From the IMG/VR virus record IMGVR_UViG_3300010885_002384, positions 1 through 20,082 of that record: a stretch of 20,082 nt of DNA. One strand, 5' to 3'. Shown here piece by piece: positions 1 to 16,095 of this stretch. Under the pieces are notes generated by a model that worked only from the letters and a program-made list of their open reading frames with translations, was not told the DNA's origin and searched no databases. The stretch comes from a virus. How positions within the stretch are numbered: position 1 is the stretch's first letter; every line of letters begins with the position of its first letter. Made by a program: the position numbers and the translations under genes.

Positions 1-2418
1 AAAAGATTAGTACGAGATTCAATTAGAAACTATGCTCGTAAAGGAACTTTAAAAGGACTGCAGGACTATGTTCAAGATGTCACCAACTACTCAGCTACTA
101 TAACCGAATCTGGAAATAAAGTACTGGGCCATGAAAACAGTACGTTTGATATTCAAGGATGGAAAGACGGGGATGCTGTTGGAGATTGGATTCCAACTAG
201 TTACTCAGGCACAACACCTACAGCTACCATCACTGTAGATGCTACTCAAACAACTGCTACAGGTGCTACAGGTGCTACTTCAAACGGCACTATCACTATC
301 GGGGCGGGGTTAAAAACTTTTCCTCTTGTTTTAGCTAATCCTGTTGCTGGTATTGCTGGTGTGCGTATTAGGGCTATCGCCCGTGATACACCTACATATT
401 TCATGGAAGGCCCAGCAAATCTTTGGTATAACGGCAATTCAAATTCGATTACAAACAATAATTTTGACACTGATACTTCTGGATGGACTTTTGGTTCAAA
501 TGCTTCTATCAGCAGGTCAACTTCCAGAGCATATTCAGGCGCTGGTTCACTAAAAGTTTCTTCAAATACTGGAAATGCTGATTATTGGGCTAATAGCACT
601 GTTTATTCTGCTGTAACGGCAGGTAATAGTTATTTGGTTTCAGCATATGTTCAATCAGAAACATATTCAACTAAAGTTCATATTCGTATTGACTGGTATA
701 ACAGTTCAAATACCCTTATCAGTACTTCTGAATCTGAAGATTTTGCAGTAAATGCAAGTTCTTGGACTAGAGCAGTTGTTTCAGCTGATGCACCAGTTGG
801 AGCTGTAAATGCGATTGTCACTTTTCGTAATTTTAGTGCTGGTAGCGGTTCAGAAAGTATGTTTTGGGATGCAGTTTCTTTACAGTCTAATGATTCTGCA
901 AACTATGTTAATGGTGGCACTCTTGAAATTACTGTTGACAAGTTCAATGGAAGTGGTTCACCCAATAACTGGAACTTTGCTGTATCAGGTGAAGTAGGTC
1001 AAACAGGTGATACAATTGCAACAGCTATTGATACTACCTACTCAGCCAAGGTAGTTACTACTGCCTCTAATGCGGCTGTTGCTTTAGGTGCAGGAGCTCC
1101 TATAACTAAGGGAATACCTGTTGTTGGTGGAGTCAATTACAAACTTTCTTACCAAGGTAAGAGGTCAGGTTCTAGTGGAAGTATTTCCCCGACTATAACT
1201 TGGTACGACAATTTAGGAACAGTAGTAGTACCTGCTGCTGGTGAGTTTCCTACTAGTCCTTCCGTAGCTGTTACTACATCATTTGTTAGATACGAGTCCT
1301 CTTGGATTGCCCCAATGACGGCTGCCTATGCAACTATTCAATTCTTGTTTAGTGTTGCCAATACTTACTGGATTGATATGGTCATGCTTTATGAGCCTAA
1401 GTATTCAACCGTTACTTTTGCGTCAGGGGATGGAACCAGAGTCTCTTACGAAGGAGTAAATTCCTACGTAGTAGGAGACGTAATATCTGTTCGCGGAGTT
1501 GTCCCAACTTCCTATAACCTTTCTAGAGCTACTGTAAATACAGTTACTTACAACGGTAGAGGAAAACAAACTGGGTTTACTGTGCTTTCTAACATCGCAG
1601 ATACGTTTGTTTCAGGTGGAACTGTAAGTAAGTATGAGGCTAGACCTACGTATGCCGAAGCAAGGGGAGTCCTCGTGTCTCTTAATCCTTCAAAAACTAA
1701 CTATATTTATAATCCTTCTTTTGAAGGTAGTGGAAATTGGGACAATGCTGCTGTTACAGTAGAAAGAATTTCTAATGGTGTTGGGGCACTGTACGACGGT
1801 CCTGTAGGAGCTAGGACTAGTGCCTATAGATTTAAAGTCACAGGAATAGTATCAGGGTTAACAAGTCCTCAAATATACCAACAGGTAGGTGTGGGAAGTG
1901 CTAACCAGCTTCCTAAAAATAAAACGTATACGTTCTCTATTTACATCAGAAGCAATACGGGTACTACGACTAACCCTTTAGTAATTCCTAATGGATTAGG
2001 ACTTGCCTATTTAGACAGCGTTGATGGCACAGTCTCTACAGCTAAAACTTTAAAATTAACAACTGATTGGCAAAGGGTAAGCTTATCTTTGTGGGTTCCA
2101 GACAACAAAGTCGATAACTTTTTATATGTAGGCATAACCCCTTCAATAGGGCAGGTCATTGAAATTGACGCCGCTCAACTTGAAATTGGAAACGTTGCTA
2201 CGGATTATTTTGATGGAACAATGACTTCCAGCGGATGTGCATGGACTAAGGGAAGTGCTAATTCTAGCTCGTCTTCTTCCATTAAGTACACAAATCTTAG
2301 CTATAGATTAAGTCGTTTACGTCAGGGAATTACTGGATTCTTGCCCATAAATACTCCTTGGGCAATTGAATATATTGATAATGATGCAAGTCCGCAACAA
2401 TACTCTGGAATTTCGTAG
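1..2418 (+). CDS. Phage tail/appendage protein with carbohydrate-binding-like modules, 5' partial
   Basis: The frame is open from the first base to the TAG at 2416-2418, giving 805 codons, so the true start lies upstream. The first residues (RNYARKGTLKGLQDYVQDVT) resemble the amphipathic segment of actinophage tail and baseplate-periphery proteins. The rest is rich in Ser, Thr, Gly and Asn. At least three beta-sandwich modules with the look of CBM4/9-type jelly rolls follow one another: about residues 150-296 (opening with an Asn-rich stretch, then Phe and Gly-Trp, ending FWDAVSLQ), 304-466 (ending YWIDMVMLYEP) and 567-730 (opening NPSFEGSGNW, ending IDAAQLEIG). The likely role is binding host-surface glycans from the virion. 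The fold assignment is by eye; tail location is inferred from the N-terminal segment and the composition. An internal GTG at 361 is in the same frame and is not the real start. Confidence 0.75.
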   Translation, partial: KRLVRDSIRNYARKGTLKGLQDYVQDVTNYSATITESGNKVLGHENSTFDIQGWKDGDAVGDWIPTSYSGTTPTATITVDATQTTATGATGATSNGTITIGAGLKTFPLVLANPVAGIAGVRIRAIARDTPTYFMEGPANLWYNGNSNSITNNNFDTDTSGWTFGSNASISRSTSRAYSGAGSLKVSSNTGNADYWANSTVYSAVTAGNSYLVSAYVQSETYSTKVHIRIDWYNSSNTLISTSESEDFAVNASSWTRAVVSADAPVGAVNAIVTFRNFSAGSGSESMFWDAVSLQSNDSANYVNGGTLEITVDKFNGSGSPNNWNFAVSGEVGQTGDTIATAIDTTYSAKVVTTASNAAVALGAGAPITKGIPVVGGVNYKLSYQGKRSGSSGSISPTITWYDNLGTVVVPAAGEFPTSPSVAVTTSFVRYESSWIAPMTAAYATIQFLFSVANTYWIDMVMLYEPKYSTVTFASGDGTRVSYEGVNSYVVGDVISVRGVVPTSYNLSRATVNTVTYNGRGKQTGFTVLSNIADTFVSGGTVSKYEARPTYAEARGVLVSLNPSKTNYIYNPSFEGSGNWDNAAVTVERISNGVGALYDGPVGARTSAYRFKVTGIVSGLTSPQIYQQVGVGSANQLPKNKTYTFSIYIRSNTGTTTNPLVIPNGLGLAYLDSVDGTVSTAKTLKLTTDWQRVSLSLWVPDNKVDNFLYVGITPSIGQVIEIDAAQLEIGNVATDYFDGTMTSSGCAWTKGSANSSSSSSIKYTNLSYRLSRLRQGITGFLPINTPWAIEYIDNDASPQQYSGIS

Positions 2419-2422
2419 TATC

Positions 2423-2438
2423 ATGTCCGTATGGACAT
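2423..2438 (+). promoter_or_regulatory. Short inverted repeat over the start codon of the membrane-protein gene
   Basis: ATGTCC (2423-2428) and GGACAT (2433-2438) form a perfect 6-bp stem with a 4-base loop. The ATG of the downstream gene (2431-2433) sits in the loop and the edge of the stem. The first ATG of the repeat (2423) opens an out-of-frame 6-codon ORF that ends at 2443. No Shine-Dalgarno is visible, so expression may depend on ribosomes finishing the tail gene just upstream. The function is inference. Confidence 0.3.
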
Positions 2439-2682
2439 ATTAATTTCGATTATCATTTCGGGCATGGCGGTGGGTTACGTTACGGAGATTCTCTCCACCT
2501 TAGCAAACCCTCGCATCATAAAGCTATCACTCACCCTGCCACTCAGCTATCTTGCGTGTTGGCTTCTTGGCCTTATTGGCCCCACTCTCATCGTGGCAGG
2601 ACTTGCGGCGGCCTTTTTTTCCTTGGCCACCTTGCAACTTTTGAATCGACCTGTTAGCATTCAACCTATCAATAGACGATAG
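2431..2682 (+). CDS. Small multi-spanning membrane protein (possible holin)
   Basis: This 83-residue protein is largely hydrophobic, with probable membrane segments at about residues 2-20, 29-50 and 51-72, and a short polar basic C-terminus (QPINRR). It starts 12 bases after the tail-gene stop, and no other in-frame ATG, GTG or TTG lies between that stop and this ATG. Its position just after a tail gene, its size and its two or three membrane segments would fit a holin. However, no endolysin is present in the window, and many phage membrane proteins of this size have other roles. There is no clear Shine-Dalgarno, and the start codon lies in a small inverted repeat, so translation may be coupled or repressed. 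Confidence 0.6.
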   Translation: MDILISIIISGMAVGYVTEILSTLANPRIIKLSLTLPLSYLACWLLGLIGPTLIVAGLAAAFFSLATLQLLNRPVSIQPINRR

Positions 2683-2688
2683 GGAAAC

Positions 2689-3615
2689 ATGCAAATACCT
2701 GATGAGGTGTTAGACAAAGGTCTGACACCAAGAGAGTTCTTTCTGCTGGCTGTGCTATTCCGCAACGTAGACCGTTGGGGAGACGTCAACCTTACTCAAG
2801 AAGAACTTACTGAACTCACTGGCTCGTCCCGTACAACTCTCTGGCGTGACATGACTGCGCTTGAAGGTCACGGTCTTGTAGATGTTTCACGTACGAAACG
2901 TAACTACGGTAAGCTTTATAAGAACCGCTATAAACTTCTATGTCTCACACGGGAAACATCCACACTTAGTGAAGTAGACTTAACTACTACTAAGCTAAGT
3001 ACTACTAGTACTACACTTACTAAAGAAAAGAATACTACGTATTCTTTATGGGGCTCCGCCCCGAAGGAGGAAAAAGAAATGGTTAATAACTGGCAAGATG
3101 ACGACAACATTGGTGGCTTTGGGCTACTCGATGGTGAGGTTCCCGCTTCACAACGACAAAAGCCTGCAAGCAAGCGTGACCCTAAGACTCGTTCACAACG
3201 TCCACAGCACGAGTGGACTCCAAACGACGTAGCTTCAGAGTTTGCATCGCAGCTCTACGGCAAGATTCGCGGTATTCCTGGGCTACTGAACATCAGCCGT
3301 TTAGCGCCTATCCTAGGCAAGTACCGTAAGGAACGCGGCACTACCGCACTGTTTGAGATTCAGGTCATTGACATGCTCATGAACGACGACACCCGTCTGC
3401 ATGAGATTAAGAAAGACCCAGCTAATGCTTGGAAGATTTTCCTTCGCATGTTGGCTACTCACGGCAAGCAAGCACAAGAAAACTTGGGTCAGACAGACGA
3501 GGAACTTGACGAACCAATCATGGAGCGTTATATTTATGCTTCAGACGGACGAAAGTTTGACAACTCAATGCCAGGGCGAGCAGCCCTAGAGCGCTGGGAA
3601 GAAAAGTTACAGTAA
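2689..3615 (+). CDS. Winged-helix phage replication initiator
   Basis: This is a 308-residue protein. Residues 1-84 form a winged helix: after LTPREFFLLAVLF come LTQEELTELTGSSRTTLWRD as the helix-turn-helix and LEGHGLVDVSR as the wing strand. This matches phage and plasmid replication initiators and DnaD-like proteins. Residues about 95-175 are a polar Thr/Ser/Lys-rich linker. Residues 178-280 form a helical C-terminal domain (LLNISRLAPILGKYRKERG, then DPANAWKIFLRML), likely the part that contacts the helicase loader. A helicase-loader ATPase follows 26 bases downstream, as expected for a lambda O/P-type or DnaD/DnaC-type pair. A modest ribosome site (AGGGAAAC) precedes the ATG. The linker DNA carries repeats and dyads, plus a strong internal ribosome site leading to an in-frame ATG at 3079 (residue 131), so a C-terminal-only product is possible. 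Confidence 0.72.
   Translation: MQIPDEVLDKGLTPREFFLLAVLFRNVDRWGDVNLTQEELTELTGSSRTTLWRDMTALEGHGLVDVSRTKRNYGKLYKNRYKLLCLTRETSTLSEVDLTTTKLSTTSTTLTKEKNTTYSLWGSAPKEEKEMVNNWQDDDNIGGFGLLDGEVPASQRQKPASKRDPKTRSQRPQHEWTPNDVASEFASQLYGKIRGIPGLLNISRLAPILGKYRKERGTTALFEIQVIDMLMNDDTRLHEIKKDPANAWKIFLRMLATHGKQAQENLGQTDEELDEPIMERYIYASDGRKFDNSMPGRAALERWEEKLQ
2965..3062 (+). repeat. Repeat and dyad cluster inside the initiator gene, candidate replication origin
   Basis: Three dyads lie in a row: AGTACT-act-AGTACT (2998-3012); AAAGAATAC-tac-GTATTCTTT, a perfect 9-bp inverted repeat (3027-3047); and GGGGC-tcc-GCCCC (3050-3062). Just upstream are several ACT/CTAAG-type repeats, with CTTAGT (2965-2970) as the inverse of ACTAAG (2989-2994). 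The stretch encodes the low-complexity Thr/Ser linker of the initiator. Lambda and related phages place the origin iterons inside the initiator gene between its two domains. Assigning an origin here is inference from that parallel. Confidence 0.4.
3064..3081 (+). promoter_or_regulatory. Strong internal ribosome binding site with in-frame ATG in the initiator gene
   Basis: AAGGAGG (3064-3070) lies 8 bases before ATG at 3079-3081, which is codon 131 of the initiator frame. This is a better Shine-Dalgarno than the one at the gene's own start. Initiation here would give a protein of about 178 residues lacking the winged helix. The GGGGC/GCCCC hairpin sits immediately upstream. The sequence shows the site; use in the cell is inferred. 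Confidence 0.45.
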
Positions 3616-3641
3616 ACTAGTTACAAGACAGGAGGGCAAAA

Positions 3642-4358
3642 ATGTACGACATCAAAATAATTCCTTACATGGAACGACACTGGATTCTCAGCGGGGCAAA
3701 CATCCCTGGTCGATTCATCGGTATGGAACCAACAGATATTGTCAAGAAAAAGGGCGAGTTTCCAATTGACATTGAAGAATGGATTGAGGAAGTTCTCAGC
3801 GGCAAAGTTATTCAACGTCTGGGTGGCTTAGGAACCACTGGAGTTGGGCTTTTGTTTGACGGTGAGCCAGGTTTAGGAAAGACCACTCATGCAGTAGTGG
3901 CAATGATGGAGCTTATCCGTCGTCTGCCAGATGATGAAGCATCTATACGTAAAATATTTAACTACAAGGGAGACACCCTTGGGTCTCAAGCACGCCCTAT
4001 TTATTACATGACATACCCTGAGTTTTTGTCACGTAAAAAAGCGTTGATTGATGCAGACCCTGACGCTAAGAAGAACATGTTCTTAGAGATGGAAGGCTTC
4101 CACGGTCGTGCTACCGAGGACTGGATGAACGTTCGCGTTCTAGTCCTTGACGACCTTGGTAAGGAGTATGGCACTAAGTACGAGGACACTTCGTTTGACG
4201 AAATCCTTCGTTCGCGATACGATAAAGGTCTACCAACTATCATTACTACAAACGTAGAGCGTGACAAGTGGAAGACAAAGTACGGAGCTGCAATGGGTAG
4301 CTTTGTTTATGAGGCGTTCCGACGCGTCGAGGTTACGGGAAAGGACCTAAGAAAATAA
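3642..4358 (+). CDS. DnaC/IstB-type helicase loader ATPase
   Basis: This 238-residue AAA+ protein has a Walker A motif GEPGLGKT (residues 74-81), a Walker B motif ending in Asp170-Asp171 (VLVLDDLG) and a sensor-I strand TIITTN (about residues 200-205). DnaC, DnaI and IstB proteins share this core and load the replicative helicase onto DNA at the origin. The initiator just upstream and the DnaB-type helicase 0.7 kb downstream support the same role here. The start is well set by GGAGGG a few bases before the ATG. The stop overlaps the next start by one base (TAATG), so the SWIM protein is probably translated with it. Confidence 0.85.
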   Translation: MYDIKIIPYMERHWILSGANIPGRFIGMEPTDIVKKKGEFPIDIEEWIEEVLSGKVIQRLGGLGTTGVGLLFDGEPGLGKTTHAVVAMMELIRRLPDDEASIRKIFNYKGDTLGSQARPIYYMTYPEFLSRKKALIDADPDAKKNMFLEMEGFHGRATEDWMNVRVLVLDDLGKEYGTKYEDTSFDEILRSRYDKGLPTIITTNVERDKWKTKYGAAMGSFVYEAFRRVEVTGKDLRK

Positions 4359-5094: not shown

Positions 5095-6342
5095 ATGGCA
5101 TTCGATAATGAATACCGCTTGGTCAGCAAGGTAATAACTGAACGAAATATTATTCCAGTCATTGAACGAGGCATCAAGGATGACTGGTTTGTAGACGACG
5201 ACCTACGCCGTGTCTGGAAGTTTGTTCGAGAGCACTATACGACTTACCGTGAGGTTCCATCAGACGTTGCAGTCAATGATAATTTTCCAAACTTCAAGCC
5301 CTTTCCCGTAAAGGATAATCTTGAGTATCTTATTGACAAGATGGTTGAGTTCCGCCGTAACAAGCTGACTCGTGGTGGTGCAGAAGCTGTGCTTACAAAG
5401 ATGCAGATGAACGACCATGAAGGTGCTCTTACTGAAATGGGTAAGGCTATCTCAATTGTTAACGAGCAAGGCGTAATTGGAACAACGCATGTTGACCTAG
5501 CTAAAGACCCCGACAAGCGCTGGGAGCAGTACCAGAACATTCAGAATCAAAAACTATTAGGTATTCCTACAGGCTTTGAGAAGATTGATGAAGCTACTGC
5601 AGGTCTTCAAGGCGGCCAATTAATTACGTTGATTGCTCCACCTAAGACAGGTAAGTCACAGATTGCCTTACGTATTGCAAACAACGTTCATGAGGCTGGG
5701 TACATTCCGATGTTCCAGTCCTTTGAGATGAACAACCATGAGCAGTCTCAGCGTTCAGATGCCATGAGAGCGCACATATCTAGCAATCGCCTACGTCGTG
5801 GAAAACTTCAGGCAGCTGAAGAAGACCGCTACTTAGATTTGCTTGACTACATGAAGACCGCAAACCCATTTCACCTAGTAGACGCTGTGAATGGTTTGAC
5901 TATTGACTCGTTGGTAGCTAAGGCAGAGCAGTTGAAACCAGACATTCTATTTGTTGATGGTGTGTACCTGATGCTTGACCAAGTAACTGGTGACGCCAAC
6001 ACTCCGCAGGCTTTGACAAATATTACGCGTGGTCTTAAGCGTGTTGCCCAGTCGCTGGACATTCCAGTAATCATTACTACACAGACTCTTCTATGGAAGA
6101 TGAAGGGTGGCAAAGTTTCTGCTGACTCTATTGGTTATTCATCCTCCTTCTTCCAGGACTCTGACGTTATCCTAGGACTTGAACCAATTGAAGAAGATGA
6201 CGAGATTCGTCTTCTTAAAATTGTTCAGTCTCGTAACTGTCCTCCATCAGAAACAGCAATTACTTGGAAGTGGGACACTGGTTGTTTCCACGATGAGTCT
6301 AAAGCGGCTCTGTGCAAATACTGCACCACTTGGGGGGTCTAG
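5095..6342 (+). CDS. dnaB: DnaB-type replicative helicase
   Basis: This 415-residue protein has a shortened DnaB-like N-terminal helical domain (about residues 1-130) and a RecA-fold helicase domain from about residue 155 (GIPTGFEKIDEATAGLQGGQ). Walker A is APPKTGKS (residues 181-188), with the Ala/Pro variation usual for DnaB proteins. Walker B ends ILFVDG with Asp288. Later, VIITTQT and DSIGYSSSFFQDSDVILGLE match helicase motifs 3 and 4. It would unwind the fork as a hexamer. A strong ribosome site (TAGGAGGAAACA) precedes the ATG. It sits between the loader and the primase, the expected context. Confidence 0.88.
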   Translation: MAFDNEYRLVSKVITERNIIPVIERGIKDDWFVDDDLRRVWKFVREHYTTYREVPSDVAVNDNFPNFKPFPVKDNLEYLIDKMVEFRRNKLTRGGAEAVLTKMQMNDHEGALTEMGKAISIVNEQGVIGTTHVDLAKDPDKRWEQYQNIQNQKLLGIPTGFEKIDEATAGLQGGQLITLIAPPKTGKSQIALRIANNVHEAGYIPMFQSFEMNNHEQSQRSDAMRAHISSNRLRRGKLQAAEEDRYLDLLDYMKTANPFHLVDAVNGLTIDSLVAKAEQLKPDILFVDGVYLMLDQVTGDANTPQALTNITRGLKRVAQSLDIPVIITTQTLLWKMKGGKVSADSIGYSSSFFQDSDVILGLEPIEEDDEIRLLKIVQSRNCPPSETAITWKWDTGCFHDESKAALCKYCTTWGV

Positions 6343-7325
6343 TGATTCTTGATGTCCCTACAGCTCTAGACGCACTAGGCATTGATTACTCAGAGCGAGC
6401 CCATGAAGCTCAGGCTCTTTGTCCAATGCACCATGTGCGTACGGGAAAAGAAGACCACTCTCCTTCTTGGTATATCAATCTTGATACTGGGATGCACATC
6501 TGCTTTTCTTGTGGGTATAAAGGAAACCTAGTCCAGTTAGTCTGTGATGTAAATGAGTTTTACAAACAGGCTTGGGGAGTAAAAGAATCTTACGTATATG
6601 ATTACGACGCTGCTCAGAACTGGCTAGCCACTGTATCTTCTATTCCTTTAGACAAACTTGTAGAGATGATTAAGAATCTTCCTACACGTATAGAGGAGAT
6701 TCCTAAACCACTAGAGATGTCTGAGGCCCGCCTTGCAGTTTTTGTTGAGCCTCCTGAAGAGGAACTTACTAAACGAGAACTCACTGCAGTAGCTGCAACT
6801 GCCTACGGAGTTATGTGGGATTCAAAAAAGTCAACGTGGATTCTTCCTTTAAGAGAGCCCCACTTTAATAAACTCCTGGGCTGGCAGGAAAAAGGAACAG
6901 TACACCGTACCTTCTTTAATCGTCCAACTGGACTCCAGCGTTCTAAAACACTATTTGGAATCGAGAACCAAAATGAACATACAGCAATTGTTGTTGAGTC
7001 TCCTCTTGATTGCCTGCGGATTCATGCTGCTGGCATTCCTGGTGCGGTAGCAGTCTGTGGCTCCTCAATATCAGAGGAACAGATAAAGCTCCTTCGCTAC
7101 TCAGAGAAGATTATTTGTGCGTTTGATAACCCTAAACTAGATAAAGCTGGAGCCAAAGCATCTAAAGAAATGCTCGAGTGGGGCCGTAAATACGCTTTAA
7201 ATCTGTTCTATTTCAACTATGGTAGTAGTGGTAAGAAAGACCCAGGAGAGATGACCGACGAGGAAATCGCATGGGGAATTCAAAACGCACAATCGTCCAT
7301 ACTTGGTGAACAGGCATATGTTTAA
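6342..7325 (+). CDS. dnaG: DnaG-type primase with zinc finger and TOPRIM domain
   Basis: This compact primase of 327 residues starts at GTG 6342, whose G is shared with the helicase TAG; GGGGGG just upstream can serve as ribosome site. An upstream in-frame GTG at 6312 would add ten residues lying inside the helicase gene. The CHC2-type zinc ribbon uses Cys27, His30, Cys54 and Cys57. A TOPRIM domain follows, with Glu219 in VVESPLDCL and Asp262/Asp267 in FDNPKLDKAG. These are the metal-binding acidic residues of DnaG and T7 gp4-type primases. It lacks a fused helicase, which is supplied by the preceding gene. Priming of lagging-strand synthesis is the likely role. Confidence 0.82.
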   Translation: MILDVPTALDALGIDYSERAHEAQALCPMHHVRTGKEDHSPSWYINLDTGMHICFSCGYKGNLVQLVCDVNEFYKQAWGVKESYVYDYDAAQNWLATVSSIPLDKLVEMIKNLPTRIEEIPKPLEMSEARLAVFVEPPEEELTKRELTAVAATAYGVMWDSKKSTWILPLREPHFNKLLGWQEKGTVHRTFFNRPTGLQRSKTLFGIENQNEHTAIVVESPLDCLRIHAAGIPGAVAVCGSSISEEQIKLLRYSEKIICAFDNPKLDKAGAKASKEMLEWGRKYALNLFYFNYGSSGKKDPGEMTDEEIAWGIQNAQSSILGEQAYV

Positions 7326-14275: not shown

Positions 14276-14405
14276 CATTGAAGATGTTTTTGGCGCAGTA
14301 ATGCTTACCGCCATTATTGTAATACTGGGTATAGGACTTGTATGGTCTATTGCAACTAACGAACGACTACGAAACGAACTACGAAAGAAGGACCAAAATG
14401 ATTAA
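14268..14405 (+). CDS. Small single-span membrane protein (45 residues)
   Basis: Starting with GTG 14268, the ORF encodes 45 residues: a short N-terminus (MYSIEDVF), one hydrophobic span (about residues 9-28, VMLTAIIVILGIGLVWSI) and a basic tail (NERLRNELRKKDQND). It overlaps the preceding stop by eight bases and recA by eight bases. An earlier in-frame ATG at 14220 would lie inside the preceding gene, so the GTG is preferred. The basic tail would face the cytoplasm. Function unknown. Confidence 0.55.
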   Translation: MYSIEDVFGAVMLTAIIVILGIGLVWSIATNERLRNELRKKDQND

Positions 14406-15444
14406 TGCTGAAGCCCGAAAGATTATGGCGCAGATTAATAAGCGCTTTGGAGAAAACGTTGTTGTTCTAGGAGAGGATATTAGAAGTGACCTCATTCAAC
14501 GTGTTACTACTGGTTCTACTACTTTTGATTACATTCTGGGTGGTGGCTTTCCTACTAACCAGTGGAACGAGCTCGTGGGTGAGCCGTCGCATGGTAAGAC
14601 AGCGATTGCTCTCAAAACCATTGCCGCAAACCAAGCACTAGACCCTGAGTTTACTGCTGTTTGGGTAGCCGCTGAGCAGTGGGTACCTGAGTACGCTGCA
14701 ATGTGTGGGGTGGACATCTCCCGAGTCATTGTAATTGAAACTAATATTATGGAGGAAGCTTATGATGCGGTTCTTGCTTTTGCTGAATCAAAGTCAGTTG
14801 ACGCTATCGTTATTGATTCTCTTCCTGCCCTAGTTCCTGGGCCAGAAGATGAAAAGAGCATGGATGAAATGACCGTTGGTCGTGGAGCTCTAATCACTAA
14901 CAAGTTCTTCCGTAAAGCTGGAGCTGCTATGAAACGCAGCCTTGTTGAGAACGAGCGACCTATTCTAGGCATCATTATCAATCAGTACCGCATGAAGATT
15001 GGTGTAATGCATGGAGACCCACGCACTACTCCAGGTGGTCAAGGTAAAGACTACGCATACTTTACTCGCTCTGAGGTTCGTCGTGACGAATGGATTGAAG
15101 CAGGTACAGGCGTAAACAAAACGCGTGTAGGACAGCGTATCAAGATTCGTAATCTAAAGAACAAGACAGCCCCACCATCACAGGTTGCCTATATTGATTA
15201 CTACTTTGCTAGCCACAGCATTTATGAAGCAGGAGACTATGACACTTCTAAAGAAGTTGCAGCCATGGCTATTGTAAAGCAGATAGTAGACCGCAAGGGT
15301 GGTTGGATTTATTACGGCGAACGCAAGTGGCAGGGTCAGGAAAACCTGGTTAACTCACTTAGAGAAGAACCAGACTTCTTTGAAGAGCTGCGCCAGAAGG
15401 TACTTTCCACTCCAGATTCCTTTGTAGGAGTATCGGAAGAGTGA
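14398..15444 (+). CDS. recA: RecA recombinase
   Basis: The 348-residue protein starts at ATG 14398 with AGAAGGACC upstream; a TTG at 14338 in the same frame lies within the preceding small gene. It has the RecA core: Walker A GEPSHGKT (61-68), catalytic Glu93 in AAEQ, Walker B VDAIVIDSLPAL, and the L2 region NQYRMKIGVMHGDPRTTPGG, which matches the bacterial NQIRMKIGVM-type loop closely. The C-terminal domain (GGWIYYGERKWQGQENLV) matches bacterial RecA in order. The very acidic tail of E. coli RecA is short here. It would coat ssDNA and drive strand exchange, with the nucleases that follow. The next gene overlaps it by GTGA. Confidence 0.92.
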   Translation: MINAEARKIMAQINKRFGENVVVLGEDIRSDLIQRVTTGSTTFDYILGGGFPTNQWNELVGEPSHGKTAIALKTIAANQALDPEFTAVWVAAEQWVPEYAAMCGVDISRVIVIETNIMEEAYDAVLAFAESKSVDAIVIDSLPALVPGPEDEKSMDEMTVGRGALITNKFFRKAGAAMKRSLVENERPILGIIINQYRMKIGVMHGDPRTTPGGQGKDYAYFTRSEVRRDEWIEAGTGVNKTRVGQRIKIRNLKNKTAPPSQVAYIDYYFASHSIYEAGDYDTSKEVAAMAIVKQIVDRKGGWIYYGERKWQGQENLVNSLREEPDFFEELRQKVLSTPDSFVGVSEE

Positions 15445-15761
15445 AAAGCGAAGGACAGAAGCAGTCTCAGAAGCACGAGAAGCGTCTCGCCAAGGCAGTC
15501 GGAGGGCAAACCACTGCTGCTTCTGGGGCCTTCTGGTCCCGTAAAGGAGATGTTAGAAGCACTACACTTCTTATAGAACATAAGTGGACAGGCAAGCTAA
15601 GCAAAACAATCAGTTCAAAGGAACTAAAAAAGATTACAAATGAAGCCATTATGGATGGGCGACTACCTGTTTTTGGTATTCATCTAGATGGCGAAGACTA
15701 TGTCATTCTTATGGAGACTGACTTCTTAGAACTGTGGGATAAACTTCATGGACCTGAATAG
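15441..15761 (+). CDS. Small PD-(D/E)XK nuclease, Holliday-junction-resolvase-like
   Basis: The 106-residue protein starts with GTG in a GTGA overlap with recA. It has Glu13 in a basic first helix (KHEKRLAKAVGG), Asp37 in GDVR and a Glu46-x-Lys48 pair in LLIEHKW, the order E...D...ExK seen in PD-(D/E)XK enzymes and archaeal Hjc-like resolvases. Its small size and direct coupling to recA fit a junction or branch nuclease. A VRR-NUC or restriction-like endonuclease remains possible. The catalytic layout is seen; substrate is inferred. Confidence 0.7.
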   Translation: MKSEGQKQSQKHEKRLAKAVGGQTTAASGAFWSRKGDVRSTTLLIEHKWTGKLSKTISSKELKKITNEAIMDGRLPVFGIHLDGEDYVILMETDFLELWDKLHGPE

Positions 15762-16095
15762 TCTTTACGGACAAAAAGATGTGTCATGGATGGATGACTC
15801 AGCTTGCTTAAATCTACCTAACCCTGATATATTTTTTCCACCAAGAGATAAAGTTCTTTATAAGGAAACTGCAGACAAGGCAAAGGAGTACTGTCTAGGA
15901 ACAGCTGAGACTGCTCCTTGTCCTGTTAGAAATAAATGTCTGTGGTATGCAGTAGACTCAGATGAAAGTCACGGAATTTGGGGAGGCCTAAGTCACCGTG
16001 AAAGAAACGCACTTGTACGCAAGTGGCAACGACAACATAAAGCTAGCATGACCCTGAAGGACTATATTCTTCAGTCAAAAACGAAAGGTAAATAA
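15748..16095 (+). CDS. whiB: WhiB-family protein with unusual Cys spacing
   Basis: This 115-residue protein has the WhiB GIWGG turn (residues 76-80, then LSHRER), CPVRNKC, and the four Cys expected of the Fe-S cluster: Cys20, Cys49, Cys58 and Cys64. In typical Wbl proteins the second and third Cys are spaced C-x2-C; here they are C-x8-C, with a six-residue insert (LGTAETAP). The C-terminal basic part (RKWQRQHK) would bind DNA or sigma factor. Wbl proteins act with the primary sigma factor in Actinobacteria, and phage-encoded copies can interfere with host WhiB control. It overlaps the nuclease gene by 14 bases. This gene is the best single clue to an actinobacterial host. Confidence 0.88.
   Translation: MDLNSLYGQKDVSWMDDSACLNLPNPDIFFPPRDKVLYKETADKAKEYCLGTAETAPCPVRNKCLWYAVDSDESHGIWGGLSHRERNALVRKWQRQHKASMTLKDYILQSKTKGK

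Follow-up and report, generated by a model that had tools for sequence, protein, structure and literature searches.

An O-like initiator gene in a replication gene cluster

Can the DNA that encodes the linker of a phage replication initiator also be the place where replication starts? This question is raised by a stretch of viral DNA of 20,082 nucleotides (IMG/VR record IMGVR_UViG_3300010885_002384; the window), in which a sequence-only reading had placed a candidate origin inside the initiator gene. The window differs from a contig of 43,819 bases (L001/G001) at 1 of 8,612 compared positions and is therefore a fragment of a longer genome. An origin inside the initiator gene was the best explanation that we found, given the kept linker DNA and a lambda-like order of elements: with a probability of roughly 70%, the linker DNA is a lambda-type intragenic origin that carries a strand-polarised DNA hairpin. 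The features on which this reading is built are the following (strand given where one was assigned).

2689–3615, plus strand: O-like replication initiator gene, 308 aa; phrog_270 and phrog_678 matches
2689–2943, plus strand: N-terminal winged-helix domain, residues 1–85 (AlphaFold model)
2883–2900: iteron-like dyad TGTTTC-N6-GAAACG, codons 65–71, at the edge of the winged helix
2941–2958: iteron-like dyad TGTCTC-N6-GAAACA, codons 85–90
2965–3026: A+T-rich stretch with the AGTACT pair; presumed unwinding element
3027–3047: hairpin 1, AAAGAATAC-TAC-GTATTCTTT; perfect arms, conserved loop, covariation
3050–3062: hairpin 2, GGGGC-TCC-GCCCC; adjoins hairpin 1, conserved in clusters
3064–3070, plus strand: Shine-Dalgarno AAGGAGG of an in-frame internal start; match across clusters
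3079–3615, plus strand: predicted short product, 178 aa, the C-terminal part alone, from an internal ATG
3166–3612, plus strand: helical C-terminal domain, residues 160–308 (AlphaFold model)
3642–4358, plus strand: DnaC-like helicase loader (phrog_50, E 1.1e-25)
5095–6342, plus strand: DnaB-like helicase (PF03796, E 8.9e-29)
6312–7325, plus strand: Toprim DNA primase (PF13155, E 9.7e-11; phrog_47, E 3.3e-33)

The gene at 2689–3615 matched two PHROG families, phrog_270, a replication initiation protein (E 9.5e-10), and the O-like phrog_678 (E 1.9e-4), and all 7 members of A1 matched both with E values of at most 0.01; the HTH matches of the window gene were all sub-threshold. In the AlphaFold model (mean pLDDT 74.5, pTM 0.41), helices and strands of the N-terminal domain run until residue 83, with ten-residue pLDDT means of 69–90, and linker residues 89–146 fall below pLDDT 50 and are predicted to be disordered. 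The gene is an O-like initiator with a winged helix, a disordered linker, and a helical C-domain, and the linker, as modeled, spans the DNA elements from the second dyad (2941–2958) onward. The nearest predicted viral structure was A0A6J5KQG4 from an uncultured Caudovirales phage (E 2.1e-28, 44% identity), and a search of PDB structures with the model gave no match at E 0.001. An SNF2-type helicase gene is also found downstream of the initiator, besides the loader, DnaB, and primase genes. The initiator family and this replication gene cluster support the origin reading. A WhiB-like regulator gene at 15748–16095 (PF02467, E 1.7e-16) suggests an actinobacterial host.

Other genes of the locus deserve a brief record. 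The window encodes a RecA-like protein (PF00154) at 14395–15444 and, upstream of the initiator, a small hydrophobic protein (2431–2682) that has no Pfam or PHROG match and is 39% identical to one encoded at 1563–1841 of the relative L157. In L157, a stand-alone winged-helix ORF (1965–2234, 89 aa, with sub-threshold HTH matches) overlaps the start of the full-length initiator (2231–3301) and is apparently a duplicated DNA-binding domain.

Relatives were gathered by protein-based IMG/VR scans, which left 48 loci with the window (47 others) in 34 clusters at 90% amino-acid identity. Left out of the 48 were same-contig repeats, L024 (residues 1–68 only, where the contig ends), and L167, whose protein is 100% identical to that of L166. 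Contig ends cut L163, L164, and L165, and three members of the family known via a DNA motif only (L028, L064, and L069) stand outside the 48. L002 is 78% identical to the window. Cultured relatives were sought by tblastn against INPHARED with the window initiator, L057, L063, L027, and L159, all without a match; the window initiator likewise had no INPHARED match at E 0.01 and none in one GTDB scan. Three contigs of 91–93 kb (G002, G003, and G005) carry the initiator family and have their first 50–100 bases repeated close to the opposite end, as circular assemblies do.

A hairpin with a fixed loop type is kept within the initiator gene

The sequence-only reading had described three successive dyads, and all three are present: the AGTACT pair (2998–3003 and 3007–3012), 3027–3047, and 3050–3062. 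As elements of an origin they did not fare alike. The segment 3027–3062 is a conserved pair of hairpins, and the AGTACT pair was not kept in nine aligned relatives.

A 9-bp arm with a 3-base loop, the form of hairpin 1, arose in none of 500 dinucleotide-preserving shuffles of 2940–3062. Across the 20 kb, this form occurred in 2 of 499 segments (123 nt, step 40), which should be hairpin 1 itself, their positions not being listed. In each cluster, the whole gene was searched for its best hairpin with a loop of 3 bases, whatever the loop letters. Hairpin 1 with perfect arms of 8–11 bp was present in 30 of the 34 clusters and in 30 of the 33 evaluable ones; the contig of L165 ends before the site, and L146, L168, and L169 do not have the hairpin. 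Synonymous-codon shuffles of the same genes reached an 8-bp arm in 33 of 2040 cases.

The loops in the 30 clusters were TTC (17), TAC (12), and TCC (1), all closed by C-G. The loop thus reads C(TNC)G on the coding strand and C(GNA)G on the opposite strand in 30/30 clusters with hairpin 1, the opposite strand of the window having C(GTA)G. The arms varied among relatives (AAAGAATAC, TAATAAATAC, CAAGAAATAC, CTTTAGGTAC, TAAATAAGAC, AAAGAGTAC, and more). C(TNC)G-type hairpins with arms of at least 8 bp occurred once per contig in 5 contigs, and G002 has one further hairpin of that loop type with 7-bp arms. Because folding parameters gave identical energy for both strands of hairpin 1, a difference in stability between the strands rests on the literature considered below.

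The arms of hairpin 1 covary

Conservation of the linker DNA at synonymous sites among homologous initiator genes had been proposed as a check on the candidate origin; we replaced it with the stronger measure of two-sided covariation. Of the 30 rows, 21 were distinct and were used, with perfect arms of at least 8 required and the loop left unconstrained. Change on both sides was seen at 8 of 10 stem pairs. Two-sided change amounted to 49 cells versus 10.8 ± 3.1 in shuffles (reached in 0/500), and the covariation score was 0.657 versus 0.163 in shuffles (0/500) and was lost when the partner was slid. Two measures were weaker: shuffles reached the count of pairs changing on both sides in 8/500 cases and the count of further pair types in 94/500. 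Paired cells made up 97.6%, a value that is inflated because every row had to have perfect arms of at least 8. That requirement does not by itself create two-sided change at a single homologous position. On a 29-row tree, there were at least 18 changes among 14 arm/loop states, with "none" counted as one state. The commonest arm state recurred in distant rows (8 rows, 7 changes), and this recurrence may reflect origin exchange between phages.

Single relatives show how the stem is maintained at the expense of the peptide. In L002, the first stem codon changed from AAG to GAG and was compensated by a change from TTA to CTA, and in L022 the peptide KNTTYSL became LNTSYLI with hairpin 1 still perfect. 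These data bear on the explanation that a conserved peptide, KNTSYSL, accounts for the repeated DNA. KNT[TS]YS is common among close relatives, as such an explanation would have it, but LNTSYLI, SKTSSYL, NKTTSYL, INTTYLL, and LGTSYLK all occur with a perfect hairpin 1, and the linker that contains them is predicted to be disordered. The covariation already refutes a peptide origin of the repeats, to which we assign practically no probability. As far as sequence comparison can tell, it is the DNA elements, not the peptide, that are kept in this predicted-disordered linker, and its residues follow DNA needs, as the sequence-only reading had supposed.

Variable iteron-like dyads and an A+T-rich stretch precede the hairpin

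The same reading had drawn a parallel to the iterons of lambda O and had pointed to ACT/CTAAG-type repeats. Iteron-like elements do exist here, but they are the TGTYTC-N6-GAAACR dyads and not the ACT repeats. Ahead of hairpin 1, CTA/TAG triplets numbered 153, compared with a dinucleotide expectation of 164.9, and these repeats are not special. A DnaA-trio-like or ACT-triplet unwinding element was rejected, CTA/TAG not lying above dinucleotide shuffles.

The two dyads of the window sit in different codon frames. The dyad at 2883–2900 is found at the same place in L002 and is absent there in L003-type relatives, in which dyads start at gene nucleotides 259 and 313; the dyad at 2941–2958 aligns with the second of these. 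Other clades have different dyads, likewise before hairpin 1 (CCCACA-N4-TGTGGG, ATGCCTC-N6-GAGGCAT, and CACCCCTC-N6-GAGGGGTG), and many relatives have two or more. For several clusters, such as L135, L140, and L174, no clear dyad iterons were listed.

The iterons of the window are imperfect dyads, unlike the perfect hairpin 1 arms of 8–11 pairs, and iterons vary between clades whereas hairpin 1 keeps its AC-TNC-GT core, its loop, and its polarity. Because the iterons change while the form of hairpin 1 is constant, these data suggest that the iteron-binding domain of the initiator is not the reader of the hairpin. They also speak to the possibility that a dimeric protein uses hairpin 1 as a symmetric operator, whose half-site drifts with the protein as iterons do. 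That the iterons of the same genes are dyads changing between clades would fit an operator. A symmetric dimer, however, does not need a fixed loop polarity, and TNC stands on the coding strand in 30/30 clusters and in the 17/17 plasmid loci described below; arms perfect over 8–11 pairs beside imperfect window iterons, and an AC-TNC-GT core that is constant while the arms change, argue in the same direction. We consider a symmetric operator improbable.

The intragenic origin reading includes an unwinding element, and the 50 bases before hairpin 1 are 0.68 A+T in the window versus a gene mean of 0.52. This enrichment is moderate, 1020 of 20,032 50-mers being at least as A+T-rich, and it recurs: the same 50 bases are 0.50–0.76 A+T and exceed the gene mean in 30/30 clusters. 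Against the origin reading, GC skew, of which a switch near 3.0 kb had been expected, gave no support in 4 of 5 contigs, these having no extreme near hairpin 1; the exception was G002, with a minimum 599 bp from hairpin 1 (P about 0.026). As a separate observation, CAACAG occurs after the iterons, ∼35–75 nt before hairpin 1, in 23/30 clusters although the iterons differ.

A second hairpin and a predicted internal start follow hairpin 1

Taken alone, hairpin 2 is unremarkable, because 10/200 coding-strand and 16/200 other-strand shuffles fold as well. Its recurrence among relatives is a different matter. A second perfect stem of 5–9 bp, beginning between −2 and +5 bases from hairpin 1, is present in 26 of the 28 clusters long enough for the analysis (27/28 under looser settings), with 20 different arm sequences and no fixed loop type, and synonymous shuffles give such a stem in 236 of 2700 cases.

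The Shine-Dalgarno sequence and an in-frame ATG lie together at 3064–3081 and, like the dyads at 2883–2900 and 2941–2958, had escaped the sequence-only reading. A Shine-Dalgarno match of at least 5 bases was found in 26/31 clusters versus 17/372 other in-frame ATG/GTG codons, in a scoring that used the best match among nearby starts and thereby somewhat favours the internal start. The start codons picked in the 31 clusters were ATG (18), GTG (10), TTG (2), and none (1); L166 was mis-picked and L170 missed, and their candidate starts are visible in the sequences. Most clusters have hairpin 2, then the Shine-Dalgarno sequence and in-frame start, and then a conserved N-K/R-W motif. The C-domain may therefore also be translated alone, from ATG 3079. 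L146, L168, and L169 keep the Shine-Dalgarno sequence and a GTG without hairpin 1, and the two features are therefore separable.

This arrangement raises the alternative that the hairpins act in mRNA, as two stem-loops before an internal ribosome site that set the level of the short C-terminal product. The order of hairpins, Shine-Dalgarno sequence, and start codon in most relatives is in keeping with such control. Against it, the three clusters just named have the Shine-Dalgarno sequence and start without hairpin 1 and, judged by eye, show no G-U version of it, and the single G-U cell among 210 lies at the outermost pair, in rows chosen for perfect arms. In addition, the stable GNA loop sits on the non-coding strand, and in plasmids this hairpin type stands downstream of repA, not inside it. 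In 2400–3700, neither hairpin was called as an intrinsic terminator (GC stem and T run), two calls being made elsewhere in this segment where shuffles give 1.2 ± 1.0; no promoter covered the hairpins, and Rfam gave 0 matches up to E 1. We regard an mRNA function of the pair as unlikely, and it may still hold for hairpin 2.

Comparison with lambda ori, N4 promoters, and plasmid initiation sites

The DNA reading of these hairpins was compared with known systems. In the accessible accounts, lambda ori in gene O and the Stx-phage origins share with the window an O-class initiator and inverted-repeat iterons in mid-gene, and lambda shares an A+T-rich stretch after the iterons, then a palindrome, and a helicase-loader gene next; those accounts place the inverted-repeat iterons and the A+T-rich tract inside O and describe an unwinding that needs supercoiling. 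Features of lambda's own are four 18-bp iterons inside O, an A-rich stretch, and an imperfect palindrome (read by eye). The lambda O region, in the part scanned, gave no C(TNC)G hairpin that has a loop of 3 bases and arms of at least 6; the strict 3-base-loop hairpin, the adjoining second hairpin, and the internal start set the window apart from lambda. An intragenic origin of the lambda type is a known kind of element. The variant seen here adds a strict, covarying, strand-polarised GNA hairpin with a second one beside it, a predicted internal start, and a recurrence of the hairpin type at RepA loci. Neither an origin with such a hairpin nor an internal start in an O-like initiator was found in the literature, mostly apart from subscription papers.

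The form of hairpin 1 resembles the promoter hairpins of the N4 virion RNA polymerase, for which available descriptions give a short stem and a 3-base loop closed by C:G, with G..A on one of the strands; stem letters outside the conserved ones can vary there as long as they still pair, as in hairpin 1. According to the available portion of a review, the loop-closing C:G pair and the loop G and A are needed for extrusion and stability of the N4 hairpins. On the evidence of its letters, the non-coding strand of hairpin 1 carries the sequence part of this extrusion signature in 30/30 clusters. N4 hairpins are early promoters for the virion polymerase, whereas hairpin 1 has one copy per contig and is a presumed origin element. 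An N4-like promoter array was rejected, as there is one copy with arms of at least 8 per contig (5 contigs) rather than several. A T7-type RNA polymerase (PF00940) was matched in 0/5 contigs, but control genomes, where a match was expected, gave none either. Plasmid ssi/Frpo sites, likened here by description, are in partial accounts single-stranded DNA promoters that make primer RNA; they act on strands entering by conjugation, unlike hairpin 1.

A proposed role for the polarised hairpin

Because the order of elements matches lambda and hairpin 1 matches the N4 loop signature, we propose that the hairpin is a polarised landmark of the origin. The winged-helix domain would bind the dyad iterons at 2883–2900 and 2941–2958, and this binding, together with negative supercoiling, would open the A+T-rich stretch as far as 3026. 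At the right edge of that stretch, the palindrome 3027–3047 could then extrude as a hairpin. The non-coding strand bears a C(GNA)G mini-loop, a DNA loop of unusual stability, and the C(TNC)G hairpin of the coding strand would melt more easily, so that one strand would keep its hairpin. The polarised hairpin and the second hairpin would together mark the site and the strand for the start of the loader, DnaB, and primase, or of an RNA polymerase. By analogy with N4, rightward synthesis would be expected with the non-coding strand as template. The C-domain is probably translated alone as well, and this short product could bind the loader without binding DNA.

The hairpin type recurs beside other initiators

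A search of IMG/VR for the exact palindrome with a free loop gave 52 stretches, 21 of which belong to this initiator family (one being the window's own phage). L057 and L063 are phrog_270-type initiators of other lineages in which the palindrome lies in frame after the N-terminal part; relatives of both were sought, and only their own contigs were found. In L048, the palindrome is inside a large ORF with no PHROG match. Three further viral stretches (L030, L044, and L068) show AAGAATAC-NNN-GTATTCTT beside GATATTTCACT, with short ORFs only and other loops.

Among GTDB contigs, 40 stretches had the exact palindrome with a TNC loop. Twelve of these (11 titled sphingomonads and 1 Alphaproteobacteria MAG) share with L110 (Rhodobacteraceae MAG) a context of tandem repeats and then the hairpin, and exact TTGTGGATAA follows the hairpin in 6 of the 12 GTDB loci. 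We take TTGTGGATAA to be DnaA-box-like. A PF10134 RepA gene was present where checked (L105, L112, and the genome of L110). The RepA family was then searched in 79 and 81 genomes and the 500 nt after repA were scanned, which gave 61 loci, 47 of them orientable; the 14 dropped loci, in which repA was not orientable, show no 8-bp hairpin of the C(TNC)G type. A C(TNC)G hairpin with covarying arms was found in 17/47 loci, its loop 134–146 nt after the repA stop and TNC on the initiator coding strand in 17/17, and 30/47 had no hairpin at that place. Elsewhere in the same 500-nt stretches there were two more C(TNC)G hairpins, and opposite polarity was seen in 2/47. Four of the 17 positives had first been reached by motif (the L177, L179, and L180 genomes plus L188, which looks identical to L097, one of the 40 GTDB stretches), and in the other 13 the arms differ or are shorter. 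A hairpin of this type, AGAATCC-TAC-GGATTCT, stands 149 nt downstream of repA in plasmid Lpl of Novosphingobium PP1Y, and plasmid pKAZ5 has no such hairpin. The oriV region of Alphaproteobacteria PF10134 RepA plasmids and ICEs thus can contain, behind tandem repeats, a hairpin that agrees in type and polarity, but PF10134 RepA is a different initiator family and the hairpin lies downstream of repA, not inside the gene.

In mycobacteriophage HyRo and four more actinophages, the stretches examined around the DnaC-like loader had no C(TNC)G/C(GNA)G hairpin with arms of at least 7, and the small ORFs before those loaders do not align as one family. BLAST with a 31-base hairpin query returned 156 phage records, mostly 16-base matches in portal genes among the 60 listed, and 5 plasmid records, one a 95%/21-base match inside a Carnobacterium plasmid replication gene.

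These loci also bear on whether the palindrome serves some other process of phage DNA, such as resolution, packaging, or partition, the initiator gene being incidental. The origin role is read from sequence, and the exact palindrome is also dispersed in a bacterial genome; both leave room for another process. Yet the palindrome adjoins initiator repeats in phages and in those PF10134 loci that have it, and we judge an incidental position very improbable.

Within the origin reading, we tentatively entertain, at somewhat less than even odds, that the C(GNA)G mini-hairpin is a recurrent origin module of unrelated initiator families, which fixes the primed strand independently of iterons. Such a module would have been arrived at by, or exchanged between, O-like phage initiators and PF10134 RepA plasmids and ICEs, with the iterons giving replicon specificity.

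For phages and plasmids that replicate by the theta mode, an origin is usually defined by iterons specific to the initiator. In hairpin 1, what is conserved is the fold and the type of loop rather more than the letters of the arms, and hairpins of this type recur beside iterons across many phage lineages and in some members of the unrelated RepA plasmid family. If the hairpin fixes the priming strand, the choice of strand and direction at iteron origins becomes directly testable. It would also supply a sequence signature by which the origins of uncultured phages could be found, supercoil-extruded GNA hairpins would extend from N4 promoters to origins, and the initiator gene would carry three overlapping messages: protein, origin, and second start.

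Two minor observations concern repeats elsewhere. The Lachnospiraceae MAG Pal332_bin6 holds the exact palindrome at least 7 times (L076, L078, L079, L080, L083, L096, and L108); the left flanks of these copies are similar, and they resemble a dispersed repeat. G005 (92,341 bases) has, near 89,421 and thus at a great distance from its initiator gene, the inverted pair AAGTTATCCACA-gcc-TGTGGATAACTT, which is perfect over 12 bp and presumably DnaA-box-like.
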